From assembly GCA_035236585.1 (NCBI GenBank), contig CP141130.1, positions 75,525,944 to 75,589,943 of the forward strand: DNA of 64,000 nucleotides, in the 5' to 3' direction. Below, piece after piece: positions 20,217 to 61,000 of this stretch. The stretch is from Warburgia ugandensis (taxonomy: Eukaryota; Streptophyta; Magnoliopsida; Canellales; Canellaceae). The notes beneath the pieces were generated by a model that was given only the letters and a program-made list of their open reading frames with translations, did not search any database and was not told the DNA's origin. Each line of letters starts with the position of its first letter. Positions within the stretch are counted from its first letter, which is position 1. Made by a program: the position numbers and the translations under genes.

Positions 20217-21265
20217 GCCATTATCATCAAGACCTTATCCTGATTACGGGTTAGTCATATGAATCTTATTCCTCCATTCCTCTTTATTAAGTGTCATGGC
20301 TTCAATCCCAAAATTTTTTAATATTTTCTCACCACTTCCATCCACATTCTTTTGGGCTTTTCCCTTGCCCTTTTAAAACCTTTGACCTTGATCGCTTCAC
20401 TACTTCTAATCAGTGCTATTTTCATGCTCCATTGCAAAATGTCCAAACCACCTAAGTCTAGTTTGCCTTATATAGTTGCCTATTGATGCTACTCTTAAGT
20501 TTCCTATAATGTTTTCATTTCTAATTCTATCCTTCCTTGTCTAGCACTCTTTTATTTCAACATTCGCATTTCGACTACACCTCGTCCTATATATATGATG
20601 TTCCTTAACTGCCCAATACTTGGATCCACAGAGCATGGTTGGTCTTACATCCATCATACATAATTTTCTTTTGGATTGAGTGACACTTACTAATCACACA
20701 AAACTCTAGAGGTGCATCTCCATTTGTTCCTGCTCATTTGGATTCTCTAGGTAATTTCCCTCCCAATCTCTGTTCTTTTGAACTACCAATCCCAAGTGTT
20801 GGAAGTGATCTTTTAGGGGGACTTCTTGGTCATCAATCATTAAAAGTCCTCCATTCTAGCTCATTTCCTTGCTAAAATTGCATTATATATATTTTGTCTT
20901 AGTTCGGCTAATTTTAAATTTTTTAGATTTTAATGCATTCCTTCATAAGTGTAGTTTTGTGTTTAGGCCCTCCATTGTCTTATCATTCAAAACTATATCA
21001 TCTACAAATAATATGAATCATGCAATTTTCTAGACTATATGTTTTATTAAATTATCCAAAAACAACGTGAAAAGGTATAGGCTTAATGCCGATCCTTTTC
21101 ACATTGTTTTTGGATAATCTAATAAAACATTTATCAATTGTCTAAATATAAAAATAGCTTCTATGGTAGACCTGTTAGGCATGAAATCAAACTGATTCCT
21201 TGATACAATTGCCTCATGCCAAATGCTAAAAACATCTATATAAAAAAACCAATAAAGAATAAATA
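20217..21265 (-). mobile_element. RTE-clade LINE, 5'-truncated and rearranged
   Basis: Read on the minus strand, it matches the RTE copies at 47343-52129. It ends in the typical TGATGA-like tail (atcatcaagacc on plus at 20225) and contains the C-terminal block and the FADD-like RT motif (plus strand tatcatctacaaata near 20997). About 250 bp present in the full-length copy is missing near 21130, next to a hairpin (21041-21128). It is not coding. Confidence 0.85.
21041..21128. repeat. Inverted repeat (35-nt arms, 18-nt loop) in the RTE fragment
   Basis: The left arm at 21041-21075 (gttttattaa...gaaaagg) is the reverse complement of 21094-21128 (ccttttc...aataaaac), with about two mismatches. 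Other RTE copies carry only the left-arm sequence here, so the right arm is a new inverted copy. Confidence 0.9.
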
Positions 21266-46043: not shown

Positions 46044-49000
46044 TCACAACTTATTAACAGATGAGCAGCATACAAATGGAACCCAGTATGCTCTCCCTTT
46101 GACCTTCGTCTTCCCCGGCATGCTATCTGGCAGTCTAGCAGGAGAATTCCATTCTTTCATTGTGGTGCCTTCGTTACCAGATACAGTAGAGAAATCAGTA
46201 GCTGGCTTGGCTGGAGCATCATCTTTGGATGTCTGATCTTTGTGGGTGTTCATAATTTTAGGGTCCTGTGTTGGGGACTTCTGTTTCCTTTCAAGGTTTG
46301 CTGAAACCAGAAGACTCTTCAACGGAGTATGCGGCTTCCCTGCGTTCCAATTGGCAACCTTTGCAATGATCTCCTCATTTTTCTTTCTCCCTTCTGATTC
46401 ATTTACAACATTTGTACGAGAAGGAAACCAGGCAACTTGTGAAGAAGGTGAATTGGGCCGTTGGGAGTTCTGCAAGGATTGAATTTCAGCAGAAGCAGGC
46501 TGTCCACTGTCACCTCTACTAGGTTCAACCAGGGTCATAAAAGAAGGTGGCTCAAAGACATCAGTGTCATTATTTTGATGCTCCCTGCTAACATTTCCTT
46601 TTACATTAGCATTGGATGTTTGAACATTGACCTGCGACTGAGATTCAGAGGTGAGGCTAACTGGTGCATCTGAAGCATCTCTTGTGGAAGGAACTGTTCC
46701 ATCTGCAAAACAGTCAAGCAGACCAATTTTACTATGCCCCAAAAGTAAAGGTTTTCACCTGGCATCAGGGGCAATTAGTTAACCTCTATAGCCAAGGAGA
46801 AACATTGCAATTACATAAGGAATAATTTCCTGTGACATCAGTTATCTCTGACGCTACTAATAGAAACATCATATTCAAAACTAGGTACGTCTTGAAAGAA
46901 ATAGACAAAAGAACTTTATCCAGCAAAAATGGTTAATAGGACCTGATGGTGTTGATGACATCTAAAACAGTAACACGTGTAAGAGACAAGAATATTATCC
47001 AGTTGATGGCATCAAGAGACCTCCAACTTTTCCAATGTCTTTATTAACAAGTCTGATCAGTGTTGTGCAGCTGAATAATGTATTAAGAAATAATTTATTG
47101 AGTAATTAAAAAATGTAAAATAAGTATATATAGAGAAACCCCAAACCAGCATCCAGCTTTCCGGAAAACATAGATGTAGAAGTGCACAAAGTGTGGCCAT
47201 ACGTGGAAACTTGGTGGTGAAAACGAACCCAGAAATATAAGAACTGGTTTCAAGACCTAAAAGTGGAACTTCAGGTGACTATTAACCAAAGTTCATTCTG
47301 TTTGATTTGATGTCATTGAGCTTAGCTCATTTAATATTAAATCATCATCATCATCAAGACCTTATCCCAATTTGGGGTTGGTCACACTTGCTCCTCCATC
47401 TCCCTCTATTAAGCATAATGGCTTCATTTAGTCCCAATGTTTTTAGATCTTTTCTCGCCACTTCTATCCATGTTCTTTTGGGACTTCCCCTTGCCCTTTT
47501 AGAACCTTCAACTTGGATCACCTCACTCCTAATCGGTGTCATTTCTAGTCTCTGTTGGACATGTTCAAACCATCTAAGTCTAATCTCCCTCATCTTGTTA
47601 TCTATTGGTTCTACTCCTAAGTTTCTTTTAATGTTTTCATTTCTAATTTTATCCTTTCTTGTCTTGGCATTCATCCATCTCAGCATCCACATTTCGACGA
47701 TTCTCATCCTATGTACATGTTGTTCCTTAACTGCCCAACACTGATCCATAGACCATGCCTAGCTTGACAGCCATCCTATAAAATTTTCCTTCAGTTTGAG
47801 TGGCACCCGCCGATCACACAAAACTACAGAGGCATATCTCCATTTGTTTCAACCCGCTTGGATTCTCTCGGTAACCTTCCTCTCAACCTCTCTGCTCTTG
47901 TGTGTTACCAATCCCAAGTATTGGAAGTGTTCTTTTAGGGGGACTTCTAGGTTATCAATCTTTACTAACAATTCACTCCCCCTCCTCTCCTTGCTAAAAT
48001 TGTATTCCATATACTCTATGTTATTTTGGCTAAATTTAAATCTTTAGATTCTAATGCACTCTCTCCATAACTCTACCTTTGTGTTTATGACCTCCCTTGT
48101 CTTATCAATCAAAACTATTTCATTTGCAAATAAAATGCACCATAGAATCTCTCTGTGTAGATGTTTTGTTAACTCATTGATAACCAATGTGAAAAGGTAG
48201 GGGCTCAATGCCAATCCTTGGTACAACATTATAGTGATAAAAAAATCATAGGTCTCTTTGTTAGCGATCCTAACGTTTGTTACCACTCCCTCATACATAT
48301 ACTTAAATATGTCTATATACCCTTGTGAAAACCCTTTCTCGACCAACACCTACCATATTAACTCTCTAAATACACTATCATAAGCTTTTTCTAAGTTGAT
48401 AAAGACCATGTGGAGGTTTTCCCTCATCTCTATATATTTTTCTCTATTTAGTGTCTAAACAAGAAAATAGCTTCCATAGTAGACCTCTCATCATCATCTA
48501 GACCTTATCCCAATTAGGGGTCGGCCACATGAATCTTATTCCTCCATTCCTCTTTATTAAGTACATTGGCTTCATTTAGTCTCAAAGTTTTAAAATCTTT
48601 CCTTGTCACTTCTATCCACTTTCTTTTGGGCTTTCCCCTTGTCCTTTTAAAACCTTCTACTTGCATTGCCTCACTCCTAACCGGTGCCGTTTTCGGTCTC
48701 CTTTGGACATGTCCAAACCATCTAATCTCCCTCATCTTGTTACCTATTGGTGCTATCCCTAAATATCCTCTAATATTTTCATTCCTAATTCTATCCTTTC
48801 TTGTCTTACCACTCATCCATCTCTCATTTCTATGATGTTCATCCTATGAACATGATGTTCCTTAACTACCCAACACTCTAATCCATAGAACATGGCCGGC
48901 CTTATGACCCATCCTATAGAAGTTTCCATTTAGTTTGAGTGGCACCCGTTAATCATACAAAACTCCAGATGCACATCTCCATTTGTTCCAACTCGCTTGG

Positions 49001-52000
49001 ATTCTCTAGATAACCTCCCTCTCGATCTCTCGATCTCTCCACTCTCATGAATCATTAATCCTAAGTACAGAAAGTGGTCTTTTACAGGGAGTCTTCTTGG
49101 TTACCAATCTTGACTGGTATTCCACTCCTACTCTCCTTGCTAAAATTGCATTTCATACATTCTATCTTAGTTCAGTTGATTTTAAATTCTTTAGATTCTA
49201 ATGCTTCTCTTCATAACTCTAGCTCTGTGTTTACACTCACCCTTGTCTCATCAAGTAAGACTATATCATCTGCAAATAGCATACACCAAGGAATCTCCTC
49301 CTGCAGATGTTTTGTTAACTCATCCATAACCAACGTGAAAAGGTATGGGCTCAATGCCGATCCTTGGTACAATCCTACAGTGACAGGAAAACCACCAGTC
49401 TCGCCACTATCGCTTTTAACATTTTTTACCACTCCCTTATACATATCTTTAATTATGTCTATATACCCCGCGAAACCTCTTTCTTGCCCAACACCCTCCA
49501 TATTAACTCTCTAGGGACTATCATAAGCTTTCTCTAAGTCGATAAAGACCATGTGGAGGTCTTTCCTCCTCTCCTTATATTTCTCTACCAATTGTCTTAG
49601 TAAGAAAATAGCTTTCATGGTAGACCTCCTAGGGTAGACCTCCTAGGCATGAACCAAACTGATTCTCTAATACACCTATCTCATGCTAGCCTCTTCTTTA
49701 CTCTTTCAAAAAGTTTCATAGTGTGGCTAATAAGTTTGATTCCTCAATAATTAGTGCACTTCTATATGTCTCCTTTATTCTAATAAATTGGTACAATAGA
49801 GCTTTTCCTCCACTCATCAGGCATTTTCTTTGATTTTATAATCTTGTTAAACAACTTGATCAACCAAACTACCCCAATATCTCCCATATGCTTCCGATCC
49901 TCTATTAGTATACCATCGAGCTCCATGGCCTTTCCTGATTTCATCTTTTTCAAGGCCTCTTTCATTTCAGGTATTTTTATCCTACGTTCATATCTATAAT
50001 ATCTAATGTTATTTAGATTTATAGTATTTTCAATCCCTATATTCTCAGAGCCATTGTCATTTTACAATTTTTGGAAGTACATTTCCCACCTTTGTTTGAT
50101 CTCATTATCTTTGACTAATACCCTTTGATTATCACTTCTAATACATCTAACATGATCTAAGTCCTTACCCTTCTATTCTCTTACTTTTGCAAGTTTAAAC
50201 ACATCTTTCTCACCTTCTCTTGTTCCTAGTCTATTATAAAGCTCATCATATGCCTTAAGTTTAGCCTCGCTTATTATTCTCTTAGCAACCTTTTTAGCAT
50301 TCTTATATTGTTCATAGTTTTCATTATTTCTAGTCTTCTGTCATGCTTTAAAACACATCCGTTTTTCTTTAATAACTTTTTGCACTATTTCACTTCACCA
50401 TGTTTCCTTTACTAATTGTCTTTTACCTTTAGATACTCCTAAGACATCTTTTGCCACTTTCTTAATGGACTCAACAATATTAACCTATATGGTATTTACT
50501 TATATTTCATAGTTCCAGTTTCCTTTTACCATCAACTTATTTTTGAATGAGGTTATTCTCTCCTTTTAACTTCCATCACTTAATTTTTGGATACCTATTT
50601 AGTTCATTTCCTTTCTTCCTTCTTTTGATATGGATATCCATAACGATTAAGCTACGTTGTGAGGTTAAACTCTCACCGGATATCACCTTACAATCCTTAC
50701 ACATTGATCATTCAGTATTCTTAAGTAGAAAAAAGTCTATTTGGCTTTTATGGAGTCAACTTTTAAAGGTTATCAAGTGTTCATCCCTCTTCTTAAAGAG
50801 TGAATTTGCAATGGCTAGGTTATATGACAGCAAAATCGAGGATAGTTTTCCCCATCTTTCGTTCACTTATACCACACCCTCTGTGTATTCTATCATATCC
50901 TTCCTTTTCTTTTCTTAGATGATTATTCAAGTCTACTCCTATAAATATCCCCTCAGTGTTGGAAATTTCTTGCATGACTCCCTCCATTTCTTTCCAAAGC
51001 TGTCTCTTGATTATATCTTCTAACCCTATTTGTAGTGCTATGCACTTATAACATTTATAATTTGCTCTCTTAGAACAAGTTTTATTATTATAATTCTGTC
51101 ACTGATTCTTTTAACGTTCACGACTTTATCCTTTAATTCTTTATCCATTATTATTCCTACGCCATTTCTGTTATTATCCTTTCCTACATATCATAATTTA
51201 TACCCATCAATTTCTCTAACTTCAGCCCCTTTCCACTTGGTTTCTTGGAGACAAGCGATGTTGACTCTCCTACGTTTCATCGTGTCTACTAACTCCAAAC
51301 TCTTACCTGTCAATGTCCCTATATTCCATGTAGCAATACAAATCTTATGTTCTGGAGATATCCTATTTACCAGCACCCTTCTTGATCTCCATGGCATGAA
51401 CCCATGTCCACTTTTCACTACACCTAGGTTCTAATGCAGCGCGCCGCTTCCGAGGGGACGCTCTAGCAGCCCTTGCCCATTTTTCACTACACCCGGGATC
51501 CGATGTAGCGTGTCGCTTCTAGGGGAACACCCTAGCAACCCTTGCCCATTTTTCACCGCACCTAGGATCCGATGCAGCGCATCGCTTATGGGGAATGCTC
51601 TAGCTTGAAGGAATGTTAGTTTTCGATTCATGTCATATTAGAGTTGCCATAGTTTTAAGAAGCAGCTGGAGATATTTTTCATTTCTTCCTTACAAACTAA
51701 TGTACAAATGCATATTCATTTGCAAGTAGGAAAGAAATAACAAAATCATCTTTAACTTCTCCCTAGCAGGTTGGCACCTGACGTAAGGGTTGCCATAATT
51801 TTAAGAAGCTAGAGATGATTTTCATTTCTTCCTTGCAAACTAATATACAAATGCATATTCATTTGCAAGAAGGAAAGAAATAACAAAATCATCTTCAACT
51901 TCTCCCTTGCCAGCTGGCACCTGACGCAAGACCCTGCTTTTTCATCCGAGCTTGGGGCCCGCATTGGCAGAGTTCTTCCATAGTAGACCTCTCAAGCATG

Positions 52001-55000
52001 AAATTAAATTGGTTCTCTAATACACTCGTCTCATGGCAAGCCTCTTCTCAGTCACTCTCGTAAAAAGTTTCATGATATGACTCATAAGCTTAATCCTCCA
52101 ATAATTAGTGCAACTCTCTATATCTCCTTCATTTAGTACTAAATATAACTATTATTTTAGAGGGACAGGTATTTCATGGAATGCAAGATTGTGGTCTATT
52201 CTTACTATCATGTTCTTTTGGTTGGATGAAAACTCAGCTCCCTAAAAAATTTGCCAATTTCAAGGAGGTCTTGAACATAAGTGGGCTAGTATCCTCATTC
52301 TCTCCTATATTTTTCTTCTTTTTAGATCCCCAATTTGTAGGTTTAGCCTTGTGAATAACATCACAAGTATATAAAGAGAAGAATGGAAAGAATTGATTTA
52401 GTATGGAAAGAGATTTTTTATTGTTTCACAATGATGGACAAACATTACACATCCAACATATGCACACATACCCACACATGGAGCACAAAACCTTCTCAGA
52501 TCACCAAAATACCCCAAAACATAAAATAGCCCCAATGAAATGCTCCACTGGACATGTTGAACTTGCTTAAACAGTAATGACCACAATTTGAGAGTGTAAG
52601 AACTCCAACCACTAAGATTTTGTTTGCAACATAGTAGATTAAATCTCTCCATCTTCAACCTTGTCACAGTGAAATTATTCTCTATCTCAAAATGCTTTAT
52701 ATTAACATGAAACACTTGACTTTGTGAAAGATCAACGAACTACAATTGCCACAATAGTGAGTACAACTCTCTTTTTCTCATACTAAAAGTAGAAAATGTA
52801 TGTTTAACCACAAGCAGGCCTCATGCTACTGATGCATTACTCATGCATTACTCATGTAAAATCTGTTGCATCAGAAGTCTTGGACATATAGTGAGCCTAG
52901 TGTTACGGGCTGAGATTTTCAGACACCCGTGCGGCACTCAGTCTTATAATGCACTCAAGGCACCAAGGCTAAGTTCAGCCTTCAATCCCCCCAACTCTCA
53001 ATTGCTAGGGCTACACTCACTCACCCACTCAAGCAATGAGAGGAACTCAAAAGGAAACTCTCCCACTCTATTGAGTTTACCCAAAACTGAGATGATTACA
53101 ATTGAGGAGCTTACACCTATTTATACTTGTTCTCACCCATCCACCTCCTCAATGGATGGTCCGGATTATTACAAATGTCAACCATAAAATGGTTAAAGGA
53201 CTATTCTAGACTTCTCTCTAGAAAACTCTACACAACTCCTTAACCTTCCCTCTTTCTAGATATTTACATGGAGTCTTCCAGAACCCAGGCCTTCTAGAAT
53301 CAGGCCTTCCTCCATGGATCTTTAGCAACGGGTTTAAGTCCCTTAGACATTGTCCACACTCTAAGGAAGCCTTCCATAGAGCCTGCAAGCCTTGGTCACG
53401 GGCTTTGCAATGTAAGTTTGTGACATTCTTCCCCACCTGATAACGCTAACGCCCTTGTCGACACATCTTCTTCAATGTTGCAAGCTTCGACCTGTGGCGT
53501 GTTCCATGTGGCCTTGTAATCCTTCCATGACGCCGTGCCTTATTTCTCCCCCTGCACATTCGCATCTCGCCATGCTTGTGCTCCTTGGGGTGCGCCTTTG
53601 TCTTCTCCATGGTGCGTGCATCCCTGCGGACTTGTGCACCGCAGCACATCTGAATGTAGTCGCCCCTCTTGCGCCCTTGCTTTGCTTCACTACACTGTTA
53701 TGCCTCTTGCACCTTAGTGTGGCAGCTACCAGCTACTATGCTTCTTGCACGTTGCTTGGAGTCCACCTCTTGTGGCACACTCGCCTTTGTACCCACAATG
53801 GTGTCAACACCCTTGTTGATCATCGCTTCCTTCTGCAACTCACTAGGACCAAGCAACGTCCCAGCAACTAGGTTTGATAAGCCTAGCTGTGCCGATTGAT
53901 CTACGTCCTCTAGCTCTTCCTCCTCCTCTTCCTTGTGTAATGTTAGGTTGTGTAGGACCTTCCTCGTTGGGCAATCTCGCATGTGGTAAGGTCCGTCACA
54001 AAAGTAGCATGGCCTTGATAGGGTTGTAACCTTCCATCTACTAGCATAATTTCTAGGATTCAAAGTATTAGCCTCCTGTGTTCTGTGAAGGCTTGCCTCT
54101 CTTATGGAGCGTAATCCATCCTCCCCTCGTCGTTAAGCTCTTTCCTCATAGCTTCAAGGGACCCAGACCTTGGGTGCACTTCCTCTAGCCAAGTGGAGAT
54201 GCCACACACAATTGCCTCCATCTTTGTAAACCTTCAATGCTAACCTTACTTTGAAACCAGCTTCAATCAATCTCGCTTAGTTATCAACCCCATCAAACCC
54301 GCTCTAATACCATTTGTCACGGGCTGAGATTTTCAGACACCCGTGCAGCACTGAGTCTTGTAATGCACTCAAGGCACCAAGGCTAAGTTCAGCATTCAAT
54401 CCCCCCAACTCTCACTTGCTAGGGCTACACTCACTCACCCACTCAAGCAATGAGAGGAACTCAGAAGGAAACTCTCTCACTCTATTGAGTTTACCCAAAA
54501 CTGAGATGGTTACAATTGAGGAGCTTACACCTATTTATACTTCTTCTCACCCATCCACCTCAATGGATGGTCTGGAGTATTACAAATGTCAACCATCAAA
54601 TGGTTAAAGGACTATTCTAGACTTCTCTCTAGAAAACTCTACACAACTCCTTAACCTTCCCTCTTTCTAGATATTTACATGGAGTCTTCCAGAACCCAGG
54701 CCTTCTAGAATCAGGCCTTCCTCCATAGATCTTTAGCAACGGGTTTAAGTCCCCTTAGACCTTGTCCACGCTCTAAGGAAGCCTTCCATAGAGCCTACAA
54801 GCCTTGGTCACAAGCTTTGCAATGTAAGTCCGTGACACTAGGCACTTGTCCAACTATTCTCCTTTGTCTCCCACTATTCCATGAAAATAAACAACTGCTC
54901 AATAAAGTAACTTGCATAGTCTTTGTCGTGTGGGCATCTTCCCAATCTGTATCCCAATACTCCAACCTCTAATTGTCGTGTCATGTTGTCCTCCTTATAT

Positions 55001-58000
55001 AGCACCATCTAATGTCCCCCTGATATTCCTCATGAACAACTTTATTGCTTGAAGATTCTCCTCCTTCAGACCATGGTACAAACTGATGAACCTGATTTCA
55101 AGTATAGGATACATTGAATCCAGTATTTATGAGGTACTAAAAGACTTGCATCATGCTCCTATAGAAAACTCCATGGATTCTCCAATTTTTCACCTTTATA
55201 AATGATACTTTCTGTACAATAAAGATGAACTCACAAGTTCATAGCCCATTATCTGATCTCTTAACATCGACCAACAATGCACTTGAATGACTCCAGGATT
55301 TTTCATGTAAAATACACCTTTTAGCTTACCCAGGGAGCCAGGATCTCAGAGTTGTTACCTCCAGTCGCACAATATCATCCACCTGGACCAGGACTACTAT
55401 TCTGAAAATGTTCGGCAAAAACAGAGTGGTCAGACTTATTTACCCAACATCCTTGAGAGCTGACATAGTTTGTCAAACAATGCTCTAGGAGATTATTTGT
55501 TATACTCCATAGATTCCCTTCTTCAGTTTGGAGACAAGATGAATCCCATCTGCAATCTCAAAGCACCCAATTCGCCTATACCTAGTAAGGATCCATGAAT
55601 CTAAATGCATATTAAACATCCATCAGGCTGAGCATCAAGGTCTTGATGATGATGATGATGAGGCTGAGCATCAAGGAAAACACATTTTCTGGAGCAAGTA
55701 AGAAATTTCTTAGTAAACTTGACAAGAACACTAAATTCTTCATCATAATTGACTCCCTGCCTTTGGTTGTATATCTCAGAAACTATCTTGCCTTTGAATG
55801 TGTGAATGGAACAAGACCACTTCTGCCCTGCTACACTCTTCCTATCTGGCTTACTTGCATACCCATTTACCATATTATAATACAAAAGCACTGATCTCAT
55901 TTTAAACATGACTCCTATCCAGCTGTCACCAACTGCTAACCAATTGAAAGCCAAATGGCTCATACCAAGAACTGGCAACACCATCAATCAATTCTAATTT
56001 CTGTTTCTGTTGGCTGAATACGATCTGGAACTATATGAGTTGATGAGCACAAACTTGATAACAGTATCACCAAAAGATCTCTCCCTGTTGATTGATATGT
56101 GGTGGGTTGGCTCATAAAACGTGTCTTGTTGAAAGAAGAACATAATAAGATTAACATTTAACATGTGAAGAGAAATTAGCACCCACATCATTTGCTGGTA
56201 ATCATCATATCTCTTGAAGATGCATGACAGCCTTGGGAAATTTGTTATGTGTAGATTGACAGAACATGCATGCAACAAGTAATCGGCATGAAGCAAGAGA
56301 GTAGAAGTTAGGACAAGCCAATTGGAAAGCAATACTCATGCTTGTAATCCTCACTGCTAAGTACTCGAGGCAGAGTTGTGCCAAGGCGAGGGTGTTGGAA
56401 CAAGATTGATGACATAGAAAGCAGAGTTAAAGGCCTATCTCCAGAGATGTTATAGTCCACAGATTTTGTACATAGCCTGATCTAGTTTTTAAAGTGATGC
56501 AATTTGGTCGAGATTGCCTTCCATCATTAATGTACTGATCAAAGTGGCTTGGAAACACATTAAGGTAAAGAATGAATTACAGAATGGCTTATAATTCTGA
56601 TGTAAGTGGTGAAGTTGGGAGGATGAAACAGGGAGCTGGATAACTTGGTAACAATAGAGGGATGAAGAGTTCTAAAGGGCTTGCTACTCCCTTAACACTA
56701 CATCATAGAATTCAACAGCCCATTGCTCTGGCAATTATAGCATGAATAAATATAGTTGCAAATGGGGATCAAATAGTTAAACACTTGATATTTTCCAGAT
56801 AAAGCAGGAACTTAGTTGCTGGAAAAGCCTACAGGGGCGAGGAAACCCGTGTTCCCAAAACACATTGGAAACCAGAAACGCAGCATTTTCCCACTCATGT
56901 CAGAATCTCGTTTCCTCAATTAGGAATTTGCATTTCCTGAAAAGGGTGAATCTCATTGCCCTATTTCAGAAATTGTGTTTCCCTATTTTAGAGTTCTGGA
57001 TTCCTTAATTGAGGAAACTGGTTTCTAGTTTTCATTTTATATTTTTTCTTTCCCTAGTTAAATTGAACTTGGGAATGTCAATTATTTACAAGTTGCCCAT
57101 GATGGGTTTTCTGTAAAACTCATTCCCCCCATCCTCTTCTTCGTTTCTGCCTGACTCCTTAGAGGACCACCAAATCTATAAATCTCCATCTCTCTCTCTC
57201 TCTAACACAGTAAGCTTCCGGTGATATTTTTGGCTTGTAATGGAGAGATAATCAAACACTTTCTTAAATGAGGGGGAGTTTAGAATGTTGACAGTTGGTT
57301 GTTGAATACATGGATTGTATCTTTCATATGAATCTTAGTCTTAATTTGGGTTGTATAAGATACATTCGATTGTTGGATTGTATCTTTCATATGAATCTTT
57401 TATATATTGATGATTTCTAGGCATTTTAAGCTTCTACATTCATATAAACTAATTTATGAAGTTGTTCTTTTCCTTTTTTCCAGCTCTTTTATTATTTTTG
57501 TATATTTTTAACATTGTTTGCAATTTTTAATCTTTTATTATTTTTTGGGGATACTAGTTTCCCCAATTTAACATGCTCATTCGCCTTTGCCATTTCCAGC
57601 TTTCATTTCTGTTTTCCGTAGTGGCAACTTGAGGCATTAATAATTCAGTTGATTAATAACCACATCTAAATGACAGTCAAACACAACAATTCTTCTAATA
57701 TCATCAAATTGAAATTCAATGACCCATTGTTCAAGCAATTACAACATGAAGAAAGATAGTTGCAAATGGGGATCAATTGATTAAGAGTAGTGATATATGC
57801 ACCTTTTTCCTCATGAGCCCCTTAATAAATTATAGGAATGGAGGTCTGCCAAATTTCTGAGATCTGAATCATTCACAGCATTCCCTTAATAAATTATAGG
57901 AATGGCTATAATTTCAGGTCTGCCAGGTTTCTAAAGATCTGAACCATTCACAACATTCCCTAGGCCTAGCTGGATTAAGCTCCGAAATTCTCATCCATTG

Positions 58001-61000
58001 GATGAACACAGACATTGTTTTCTTCAGTTGAAAAATGGATGGTAAAAAGTTTCACTGTCCATTTTACAAATAGAAGCAACAGTTGCTAGTATCACCCATT
58101 GGATGTGAATTTTGGAGCATGCCCCATCTAAGCCATGGGCAACATTGTGAACGGCTTGGATCTTTAGAAACCTAGACCTACCTGAAGTTACAAGTATTCA
58201 TACCATTTATTCTGTTGCTCGTGAGGAAACAGAAGGGGTGCATGTATCACTTGATTGAACACCATATTTTTCCAGATGAGGAAGGAAAGTTCAGTTGATT
58301 AATCACCACTTTCAAATGATAGTCAAACATAGAGATTCTTCTAAGTCATCAAAATGAAAATTCCCCAATCATTATGCACTTCACATTTTCTTTGAGACAA
58401 CCAAAAACTAGATAACTAACACTAAAAGATAGATAAGACTCACTAGAAATCATCATATAGAAAAATGAATTAAAAAGGACAGCCCCAATGCATGAAGCTC
58501 CCTCGTATGCAGGGTTCGGGGAAGGGGCGGACCACAAGGGTCAATAGTATGTAACCTTACCTTGCATTTTGCAACAAGCTGTTTTCATGCCTTGAACCCA
58601 TGACCTCAAGGTCCCACAACGACAACTCTACTATTGTGCCAAGGTTCCCCTTCATGTAGAAAAATGAATTATTGAGTCAAAACAAGTGGCAGAGGGGGTT
58701 CATTACCTTATAGTTTAGATTGGGGCATGGGCTAACTTTGCATCTTTCTTTAGAAACTTCACTTTTTGAACCCTAAAATGAAGAACAAATTTTCGTGACT
58801 GGATTAATTGGCCAAGAGCATCCTGGAAGTGTTCTTGGTAAGAATTAATTCAATCCTTTGCTTGATTGATCACATCATAGCAGCAAGAGCTCATGCCCCA
58901 TTCCTTAAATGTTGCCTTATTGTTCCCGTTGAAAAGCAAAGAAGTCAAAGTTCTCATGTGAGTTTTATGTGATTGTTTTGCATGGATGAATAAGGCTTTC
59001 TCATAGAACATTAGCAACAAGATTTACTGCTAAAACGGTGAGTGGATTGAAACTCACAACCTCTTGGTTATAAAACAGGGCATTTAACCGACTCGGTCAA
59101 GTGCTTGAACCTCATTGCTGAAGTATAATTGAAAGAGTGCTTTTGGACTGAGATCAATCAAAGTTTGAGAATTAAAAAATGCACCTTGATCTCCTAGAGA
59201 GATCCAATTTTCTCACACGTTGTTTCATGTATAATCTGCACGATTATTTAGATGAGTTTTGATTTTGTGCAGCCCAAAACAGTTAAAGGATTCTTTCGAA
59301 TAATGTGTACATTGGATTAATCTAGAAGGCTTTCAATCATCATCCAGTCTGTGTTAGTTTCTGGCAACCGAGACTGCAACCTTCTACTCAACATTCCCTG
59401 GACACTTCTAACATGGCTATGGATGACAACAACTTGCAGGCATAGGTGTGGCCATGCTAGAGGATCTCATTTGTAGCAAATGCCACTCTTTCCAAATGCC
59501 TTCTTTACTTGCTTTAACCATTGTACCAATACTTCTAGAAGGTCCTCTATCAATGTTCTTGTTTCAACTATTACTTCCTACTTTTTGTATATTTGTAGCA
59601 ATATTTGGAGCTGACAGCAAGTTTTACTCTATCAGGAGCTGCTGAATCTATGCCAAAATGTATGGAGCCTTGTTGGAATGAACCAAAGATATCAGAAAAG
59701 CTGCCGAACCTGAGAATCAATGAACCAAGGACAAAAGGAAGAACTAGTAAGGTCCAAATTGGAACTCAATGACTCTATCACAGGTGTAAAGTAGGAAGTA
59801 ATACAGTGGATATTTCAGGCACTAAAATTGATGGTAGGGACAGGGAATGAGAATGAAAGATGCCGACTCATTTACAATTATGCTCTATGCAAAGCTGATC
59901 ATTAGTAAAAAGTGAGACTCAACAAAAATCAAGCATCCATGTGTAATGGTGACAATATTCAAAGCCACAAATTCGGAAATTGACTTTCAAATTACAGTCA
60001 ACTTTCCAAGCTCCAAAGATGATCTTCATGTCAAGTAAGACACCACTGTGCAAAGTAAAGATAGGTAGGTATATGAGACAAAATGAAGAAAGCAATTAGA
60101 GTATGTTTTTGCTTCTAATATAGTATTAAATCCTATACCAACAATACCAAAAATCTGAAGTAACGGAACAAGGCAGTTACTGGTACAACATCATCATCAT
60201 CAAGACCATATCCCGATTAGGGGTCAATCACATGAATCTTGTTCCTCCATTCCCCTCTATTAAGTGTCTTGGCTTTCATTAGTTCCAAAGTTTTTAAATA
60301 TTTTCCTTCACCACTTCTATCCACGTTTTTTGGGCCTTCCCCTTGCCTTTTTAGAACCTTCGACTTGGATCACCTCACTCCTTCTAACTAGTGCCATATT
60401 TGGTCTTTGTTGGACATGTCCAACTGGAGTAATAAAAAAAATTTCATACAATGTTTACTTGGCTACTGAACTAAAGGAGCAGCTATCTTTGTTTCTTTTT
60501 ATTCTTTTGAGAGGTAAAAGGAGGAACTGAATAGAGATGTTAGACCCTATTATTAGATTGACTGTAGCTACTAGAGGACTTAAAAGAGGAGGAACGTCTA
60601 GCTTATGTATTGATCCATTGATAGGATGAATAGCCAACTCAAATAAATTGTGTCATTGAGCCCAACCAAGGATGGGAAATTATAGGTAGCTCAAGTTCAT
60701 TTGCAGCCTCAGAAAAGAGTTTGAAGCCACAAGCTGCAAGAAATCATTTGGTTATCCACATCTACTGAACCTGAAAATTCTCTCAAAGGGAAAACTAGGC
60801 AATTGAATTCTTATCAAATTTTGAATAAGTATTGGTCCAATCCTTTTTTTTCCACCAAATAATTGGAAAGCTAAGAGGTTCCTGTCCCTTTAAAAAATTG
60901 CAATACCAATATACTGAACCTGAAAATCTAATGGTCCGGAATGCCAGATTTACATGAATAAGTGACAAGTTGCACTGCTATGAAAGGGAATAATAAATAC

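Follow-up and report, generated by a model that had tools for sequence, protein, structure and literature searches.

The window analysed here is a stretch of 64,000 nucleotides from Warburgia ugandensis (contig CP141130.1). On its forward strand the sequence AGGCTGAGCATCAAGG occurs twice, at 55625..55640 and 55661..55676, with the two copies identical by direct reading and by repeat search. The 20 bp between them, TCTTGATGATGATGATGATG (55641..55660), have the structure TCT(TGA)5TG, which genome matches identify as the last bases and tail of an RTE-like LINE; the tail becomes (TGA)6 if the first A of the 3′ duplicate (55661..55676) is counted. This A is common to duplicate and tail, a 1-nt overlap at the priming junction. 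At the 5′ junction, comparison with LINE ends revealed a 4-bp microhomology, AAGG (55637..55640, forward strand), between the target and the LINE 3′ UTR (..ATAAGG|TCT(TGA)n). The prediction of a 20-bp block between perfect 16-bp duplicates was thus borne out.

The probability of 16 consecutive matching bases within ∼40 offsets is ∼2 × 10−8 by base composition, and TGATGATGATG was found seven times in the window against 0.1 expected from shuffling, three of the seven lying at this locus. A wider tandem duplication, which the original prediction had named as the finding that would speak against it, is ruled out as the origin of the 16-mer pair: the homology stops at 16 bp (repeat search, family D8), and extends to 19 bp with one mismatch only because ‘ATCA’ meets the tail's ‘ATGA’. 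The window holds eight other close-spaced exact direct repeats of at least 16 bp, of which three are runs of a dinucleotide and the others local duplications; close duplication alone is therefore not specific, and it is the content of the insert that is. Elsewhere in the window, a perfect 26-bp direct repeat (TGGATTGTATCTTTCATATGAATCTT) encloses 37 bp of unrelated sequence at 57311-57399, a duplication-plus-insert scar, and at 57819-57905 a direct repeat of 23 bp without mismatch (starting CCCTTAATAAATTATA) shows a similar architecture, with 41 bp between its copies.

The 20-bp insert string occurs 5949 times in the genome (2989 forward, 2960 reverse), while its reversed control pattern gave no occurrence genome-wide. 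We read the first 30 occurrences in genome order. In 24 of these the string directly follows the 3′ end of an RTE-like LINE, consisting of a reverse-transcriptase ORF, TAA, a short 3′ UTR and (TGA)n, which agrees with the predicted identity of the insert as the 3′ end and (TGA)n tail of such an element. The sampled ends have the layout ..AATAAGATTCATGTGGCCGACCCC-TAA-TTGGGATAAGG-TCT(TGA)n, and the end type GACCCCTAATTGGGATAAGG follows an ORF ending ..HVADP-stop, both with base changes in some copies. The 3′ UTR is very short, with < 20 nt before the tail, and closes on a microsatellite rather than on poly(A), e.g. ..CCC-TAA-TTGGGATAAGGTCT(TGA)n in sampled copies. Human L1 has a poly(A) tail. 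Among the remaining six occurrences, L024 retains only the last bases, L022 is tail only, and L007, L008, L009 and L011 belong to one local repeat. All three upstream frames scanned, the only ones > 250 aa in the 30 sampled loci, matched RVT_1 (E-values of 4.8e-14 to 9.7e-24), and one LINE frame compared with the PDB matched the R2 and LINE-1 reverse transcriptases. We call the family RTE-like, a putative assignment drawn from its microsatellite tail, its short 3′ UTR and its insertion signature.

Members of the tail-supplying family are also present in the window itself, on the reverse strand. Two adjoining RTE-like copies occupy 47341..50028, with 3′ ends at 47341 and 48488; a short copy at 60186..60423 (∼240 bp matched) ends ..GGGATATGGTCT(TGA)n; and an older copy lies at 20219..21097, with 73-77% identity to the sampled copies. 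A 160-bp match to the LINE family was seen at 51975-52133.

The block lies within an unstranded host segment (54838..56817) that flank searches found to be 77% identical to part of contig C9 (8430665-8433906, locus L002). When the genome (1.12 Gb in 14 contigs) was searched with the flanks of the insert, this C9 segment was the sole relative found to span the site in two flank searches (77% identity over ∼2.1 kb); four further 37-bp flank matches elsewhere in the genome do not reach the insertion site. In the C9 paralogue the target (AGGCTGAGCGTCCAAAG-AAAC) is present once, and the TGA block is lacking. Related copies already carrying the block had been named beforehand as evidence against an insertion, and the only related copy found is without it. 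To judge from the alignment, C9 probably represents the empty site, in the form of a diverged paralogue that has further indels in the vicinity and not of an orthologous allele; exact deletion between direct repeats is an unlikely cause of its single-copy state.

The host had been described as a copia element, which is plausible from what we take to be copia reverse transcriptase-like motifs in the window and paralogue frames. This part of the prediction gained no Pfam support: neither the 128-aa minus-strand frame across the 36-bp expansion nor the four frames of the C9 paralogue gave a Pfam match. A coding role for the expansion was dropped on the same grounds, and these frames look like relics. 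Upstream of the host segment, two direct repeats of ∼525 bp lie 1411-1414 bp apart at 52895-54843 (96-97% identity, 92% in the last part), bounded by the inverted ends GCCTAGTGTTACGG.. and ..CGTGACACTAGGC. Because the C9 paralogue matches on either side of this segment (52416-52900 and 54838-56817), it gives the impression of a mobile element or repeat that was inserted here and is missing from the paralogue.

A genome search for TCT-led (TGA)n blocks flanked by duplications, as proposed in the original prediction, showed that the window event is not isolated. Patterns forbidding LINE bases upstream of TCT(TGA)n returned overlapping lists of 26, 183 and 79 places, from which we examined 93 loci (90 distinct) chosen for non-LINE upstream sequence; 63 of the 79-place list were included, the other 16 being further repeat-family members or LINE-like ends. 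Flanking direct repeats scoring ≥ 12 were present at 17 of the 90 loci, compared with three of 1075 mismatched pairs, and all three positive pairs join members of one family (L039/L052/L053). Four of the 17 loci with a duplication fall into this same family (L039/L049/L066, L052, L053, L056), leaving 14 independent events. Together with L024 from the 30-locus sample and L152 from a control set, these form a class of 16 selected by the presence of a duplication: W (the window copy), L053, L133, L104, L130, L060, L063, L126, L057, L046, L047, L024, L105, L117, L152 and L079. Besides the window copy, the genome thus holds 15 independent tail-only or near-tail-only insertions with duplications of 13-21 bp, three of which (L079, L105 and L117) are weaker. 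L117 keeps ∼21 nt of LINE sequence before its tail and L152 is pure (TGA)n, while L130 sits inside an RTE-like LINE copy, seven other copies of which (among the first 32 loci) have one target and no block.

The control set comprised 158 TGA arrays led by other trimers. In the 20 that were scanned, one duplication scoring ≥ 12 was found, at L152, and about four arrays were LINE ends by eye (L135, L146, L147, L151). At L152 (C2:2090730-2090885) the two copies of a 16-bp duplication, ACGCAAAACTCACTGA, enclose nothing but TGATGATG, and the locus is possibly an even shorter, pure-tail insertion; its presence in the control means either that pure-(TGA) events occur or that such duplications also arise otherwise. 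Three more non-TCT places lay outside the control scan, namely L111, a member of the L053 family with a duplication visible by eye, and L112 and L113, which are LINE ends.

Several groups of matches were rejected as tail-only insertions. In the AAATAAATACT-TCTTGATGATGATGA repeat family, which makes up a large part of the 100 places listed of the 183, and in the AATGATRTAYA-TCT.. family, the motif lies within longer shared sequence; other TCT(TGA)n matches proved to be diverged or internally deleted LINE ends. Among the same listed places, a dispersed family carries AAATAAATACTTCTTGATGATGATGA within sequence common to its members, so that a string resembling the LINE tail forms part of a different repeat. 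L007, L008, L009 and L011 were left uncounted as copies of a local repeat containing the block. This repeat (C1:1691053-1794443) has several copies with a TCT(TGA)n block, two of which begin 67 bp apart, at 1749455 and 1749522, and its structure suggests a LINE tail later duplicated along with its flanks.

The class of 16 shows the published RTE-clade signature, i.e. an excess of T ∼10 nt upstream and an A as the first base of the duplication. The T fraction at positions -13 to -8 before the duplication is 0.54, against a background of 0.32, in an interval fixed after the published signature and some of the flanks were already known. TTT occurs at -14 to -8 in nine of the 16 events, compared with 13% in the background (P = 6 × 10−5). 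In 12 of the 16 the duplication overlaps the final A of the tail (GA in L046; P = 3 × 10−4 at a base A frequency of 0.305). Microhomology of at least 2 bp with the LINE at the 5′ junction (range 2-6 bp) was also found in 12 of the 16, against 6% of random 12-mers from the window; here L117 and L079, which could not be placed on the LINE reference, were scored 0, and no microhomology was seen in L063 or L152. The window copy shares the A start and the 1-nt overlap with this class; it has a C|A nick, with C before the A, and TT only, at -13/-12. Lacking TTT, it leaves the full Tn-TA signature to the class of 16.

Longer copies of the LINE point the same way. When 27 LINE 3′ ends were scanned for duplications farther upstream, seven had one scoring ≥ 12 beside the tail (17-22 bp). 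In these seven the T fraction at -13 to -8 is 0.52, TTT is present in two and the first base is A in four. The agreement with the tail-only signature is one of direction in small numbers, with at least L086 doubtful.

We consider it highly probable that the window insert arose by target-primed reverse transcription (TPRT), as an extremely 5′-truncated copy of an RTE-like LINE. The endonuclease of the element would nick the bottom strand opposite ...CCATC|AGGCTG..., and the freed 3′ end, a T, would pair with an A of the (UGA)n tail of the RNA to prime reverse transcription. Only ∼20 nt, i.e. the tail and UCU (up to 24 with AAGG), would be copied or kept. With the top strand cut 16 bp away, the four bases AAGG, common to the target and the LINE 3′ UTR, would serve to join the cDNA end at that point, and fill-in would yield the 16-bp target-site duplication. 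The identity of the insert, the duplication, the probable empty site, the recurrence, the junction overlaps and the class-wide T-rich signature can be read from the genome itself; from these we infer the enzymes and the order of the steps. The original prediction had spoken of TPRT that stopped almost at once. Its first half is supported by the LINE 3′ end, the paralogue without the block, the recurrence and the class signature; an early stop is one inferred route among several, as degraded or short RNA or a trimmed cDNA leaves the same scar.

A quite improbable alternative is repair of a staggered break, in which offset nicks were filled to give the 16-bp duplication and one end copied in a few bases of a dispersed RTE tail and was then joined. 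Such patch-mediated repair, ectopic donors included, has been described in rice, as summarised in part of a review (PMC7407515). Almost 6000 LINE tails are available as donors, the junction microhomology is also compatible with end joining, and the close duplications with other spacers at 57311-57399 and 57819-57905 indicate that repair may act in this window. However, such repair does not predict that the donor should repeatedly be the exact 3′ end of one LINE (in events drawn with a TCT(TGA)n query), nor does it predict T-rich sequence ∼10 nt upstream and an A overlap across the class; the class signature and the microhomology favour TPRT over filler DNA. It is very unlikely that the source RNA was a SINE, or another RNA, with an RTE 3′ tail instead of the LINE itself. 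Plant and animal SINEs sharing RTE tails have been published (PMC13295347, in the portion drawn on here), and an RTE-borne SINE with the same 3′ end would give an identical scar that 20 bp cannot separate, but the LINE coding 3′ end is present at 24 of the 30 sampled strings. Finally, snap-back synthesis, in which CATCAAG folds back to template CTTGATG and slippage expands the product to (TGA)n, draws on the perfect 7-bp inverted repeat CATCAAG-GT-CTTGATG that a repeat check found at 55633..55648 on the forward strand, and is scarcely credible: it accounts for seven of the 20 bp and not for the TCT-led string common to 5949 places, the palindrome part AAG-GT-CTT belongs to the LINE end itself, and CATCAAG is missing from the 45 bp before the tail in all 15 other events, which rules out snap-back or slippage as the general cause.

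Elements of this picture are already in print, at least in the portions of the reports drawn on here: both the birth of microsatellites from truncated RTE copies and a human insertion made up of tail alone have been described, and the window event is not unique. In Lepidoptera, 5′-truncated copies of an RTE-clade LINE found (TGA)n/SSR microsatellite families (Tay et al., 2010; PMC2887409). As in our case, the element has a short 3′ UTR after TAA and, in some copies, a (TGA)n tail, and that paper gives 10-20 bp for the target duplications and describes reverse transcription that was interrupted and microsatellite birth; in contrast to the ∼220 bp or more of element kept in the copies it describes, the insertions here retain almost the tail alone, and lie in a plant genome. 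In human NF1 a retroelement tail likewise stands without a body: the insertion is poly(T) only, and its authors interpreted it as the possible result of severe truncation of an Alu, an L1 or a processed pseudogene (Wimmer et al., 2011; PMC3219598). It differs in depending on L1 machinery and in being a homopolymer of ∼120 bp, which does not reveal its source, whereas here TCT followed by (TGA)n names the source family.

For RTE/Bov-B elements, the Tn-TA signature comprises a T stretch ∼10 nt upstream, and in many families the duplication starts with a base of the tail repeat (PMC13295347, as far as the portion drawn on here describes them); the class of 16 resembles them in its T-rich sequence ∼10 nt upstream and in duplications that begin on a base offered by the tail. 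The scan in that work, as described there, needed at least 99 bases between duplicates, which places tail-only copies outside its design, and the size range of these scars thus falls outside at least one published duplication scan. Of truncated human L1 copies, nearly 80% have 5′ junctions with microhomology (PMC2912911, in the part consulted), as is seen here, in a different LINE clade with a TTTT/AA target. In the open-access literature searched, phrase searches included, we came across no description of such a class of tail-only RTE insertions in any plant.

What began as a hunch about one locus has become a checkable class: several scars of this genome consist of little but the tail and combine duplications, junction microhomology and the target signature of RTE elements. 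We regard the finding as real, well explained and modest, with a useful generalisation. Tentatively, at slightly under an even chance, we also propose that this LINE yields tail-only insertions regularly and in countable numbers, not as a rare mishap, and that they record abortive or heavily resected TPRT; that microhomology of 2-6 bp near AAGGTCT sets the end of the copy; and that some apparently spontaneous (TGA)n microsatellites began as such scars. If this holds, the scars, each comprising a priming site, a tail and an attachment site, would reveal in a natural setting which sites the RTE endonuclease chooses and how the 5′ end attaches. Such scars could serve to study RTE cut sites and the attachment of cDNA 5′ ends.

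As to abundance, tail-only strings made up two of the 30 sampled (L022 and L024), and the pattern searches suggest that tail-only scars are of the order of one per cent. To judge from the same 30, most TCT-TGA tracts are ordinary LINE copies rather than tail-only scars. Uninterrupted (TGA)n tracts of at least 17 nt number 7234, 1028 and 580 in the three phases genome-wide, 8842 in all, in a count to which a tract interrupted by a base change may contribute more than once. Of these, 5949 (67%) begin TCT-TGA, the LINE-tail context, and in this sense one LINE strongly shapes a microsatellite type.
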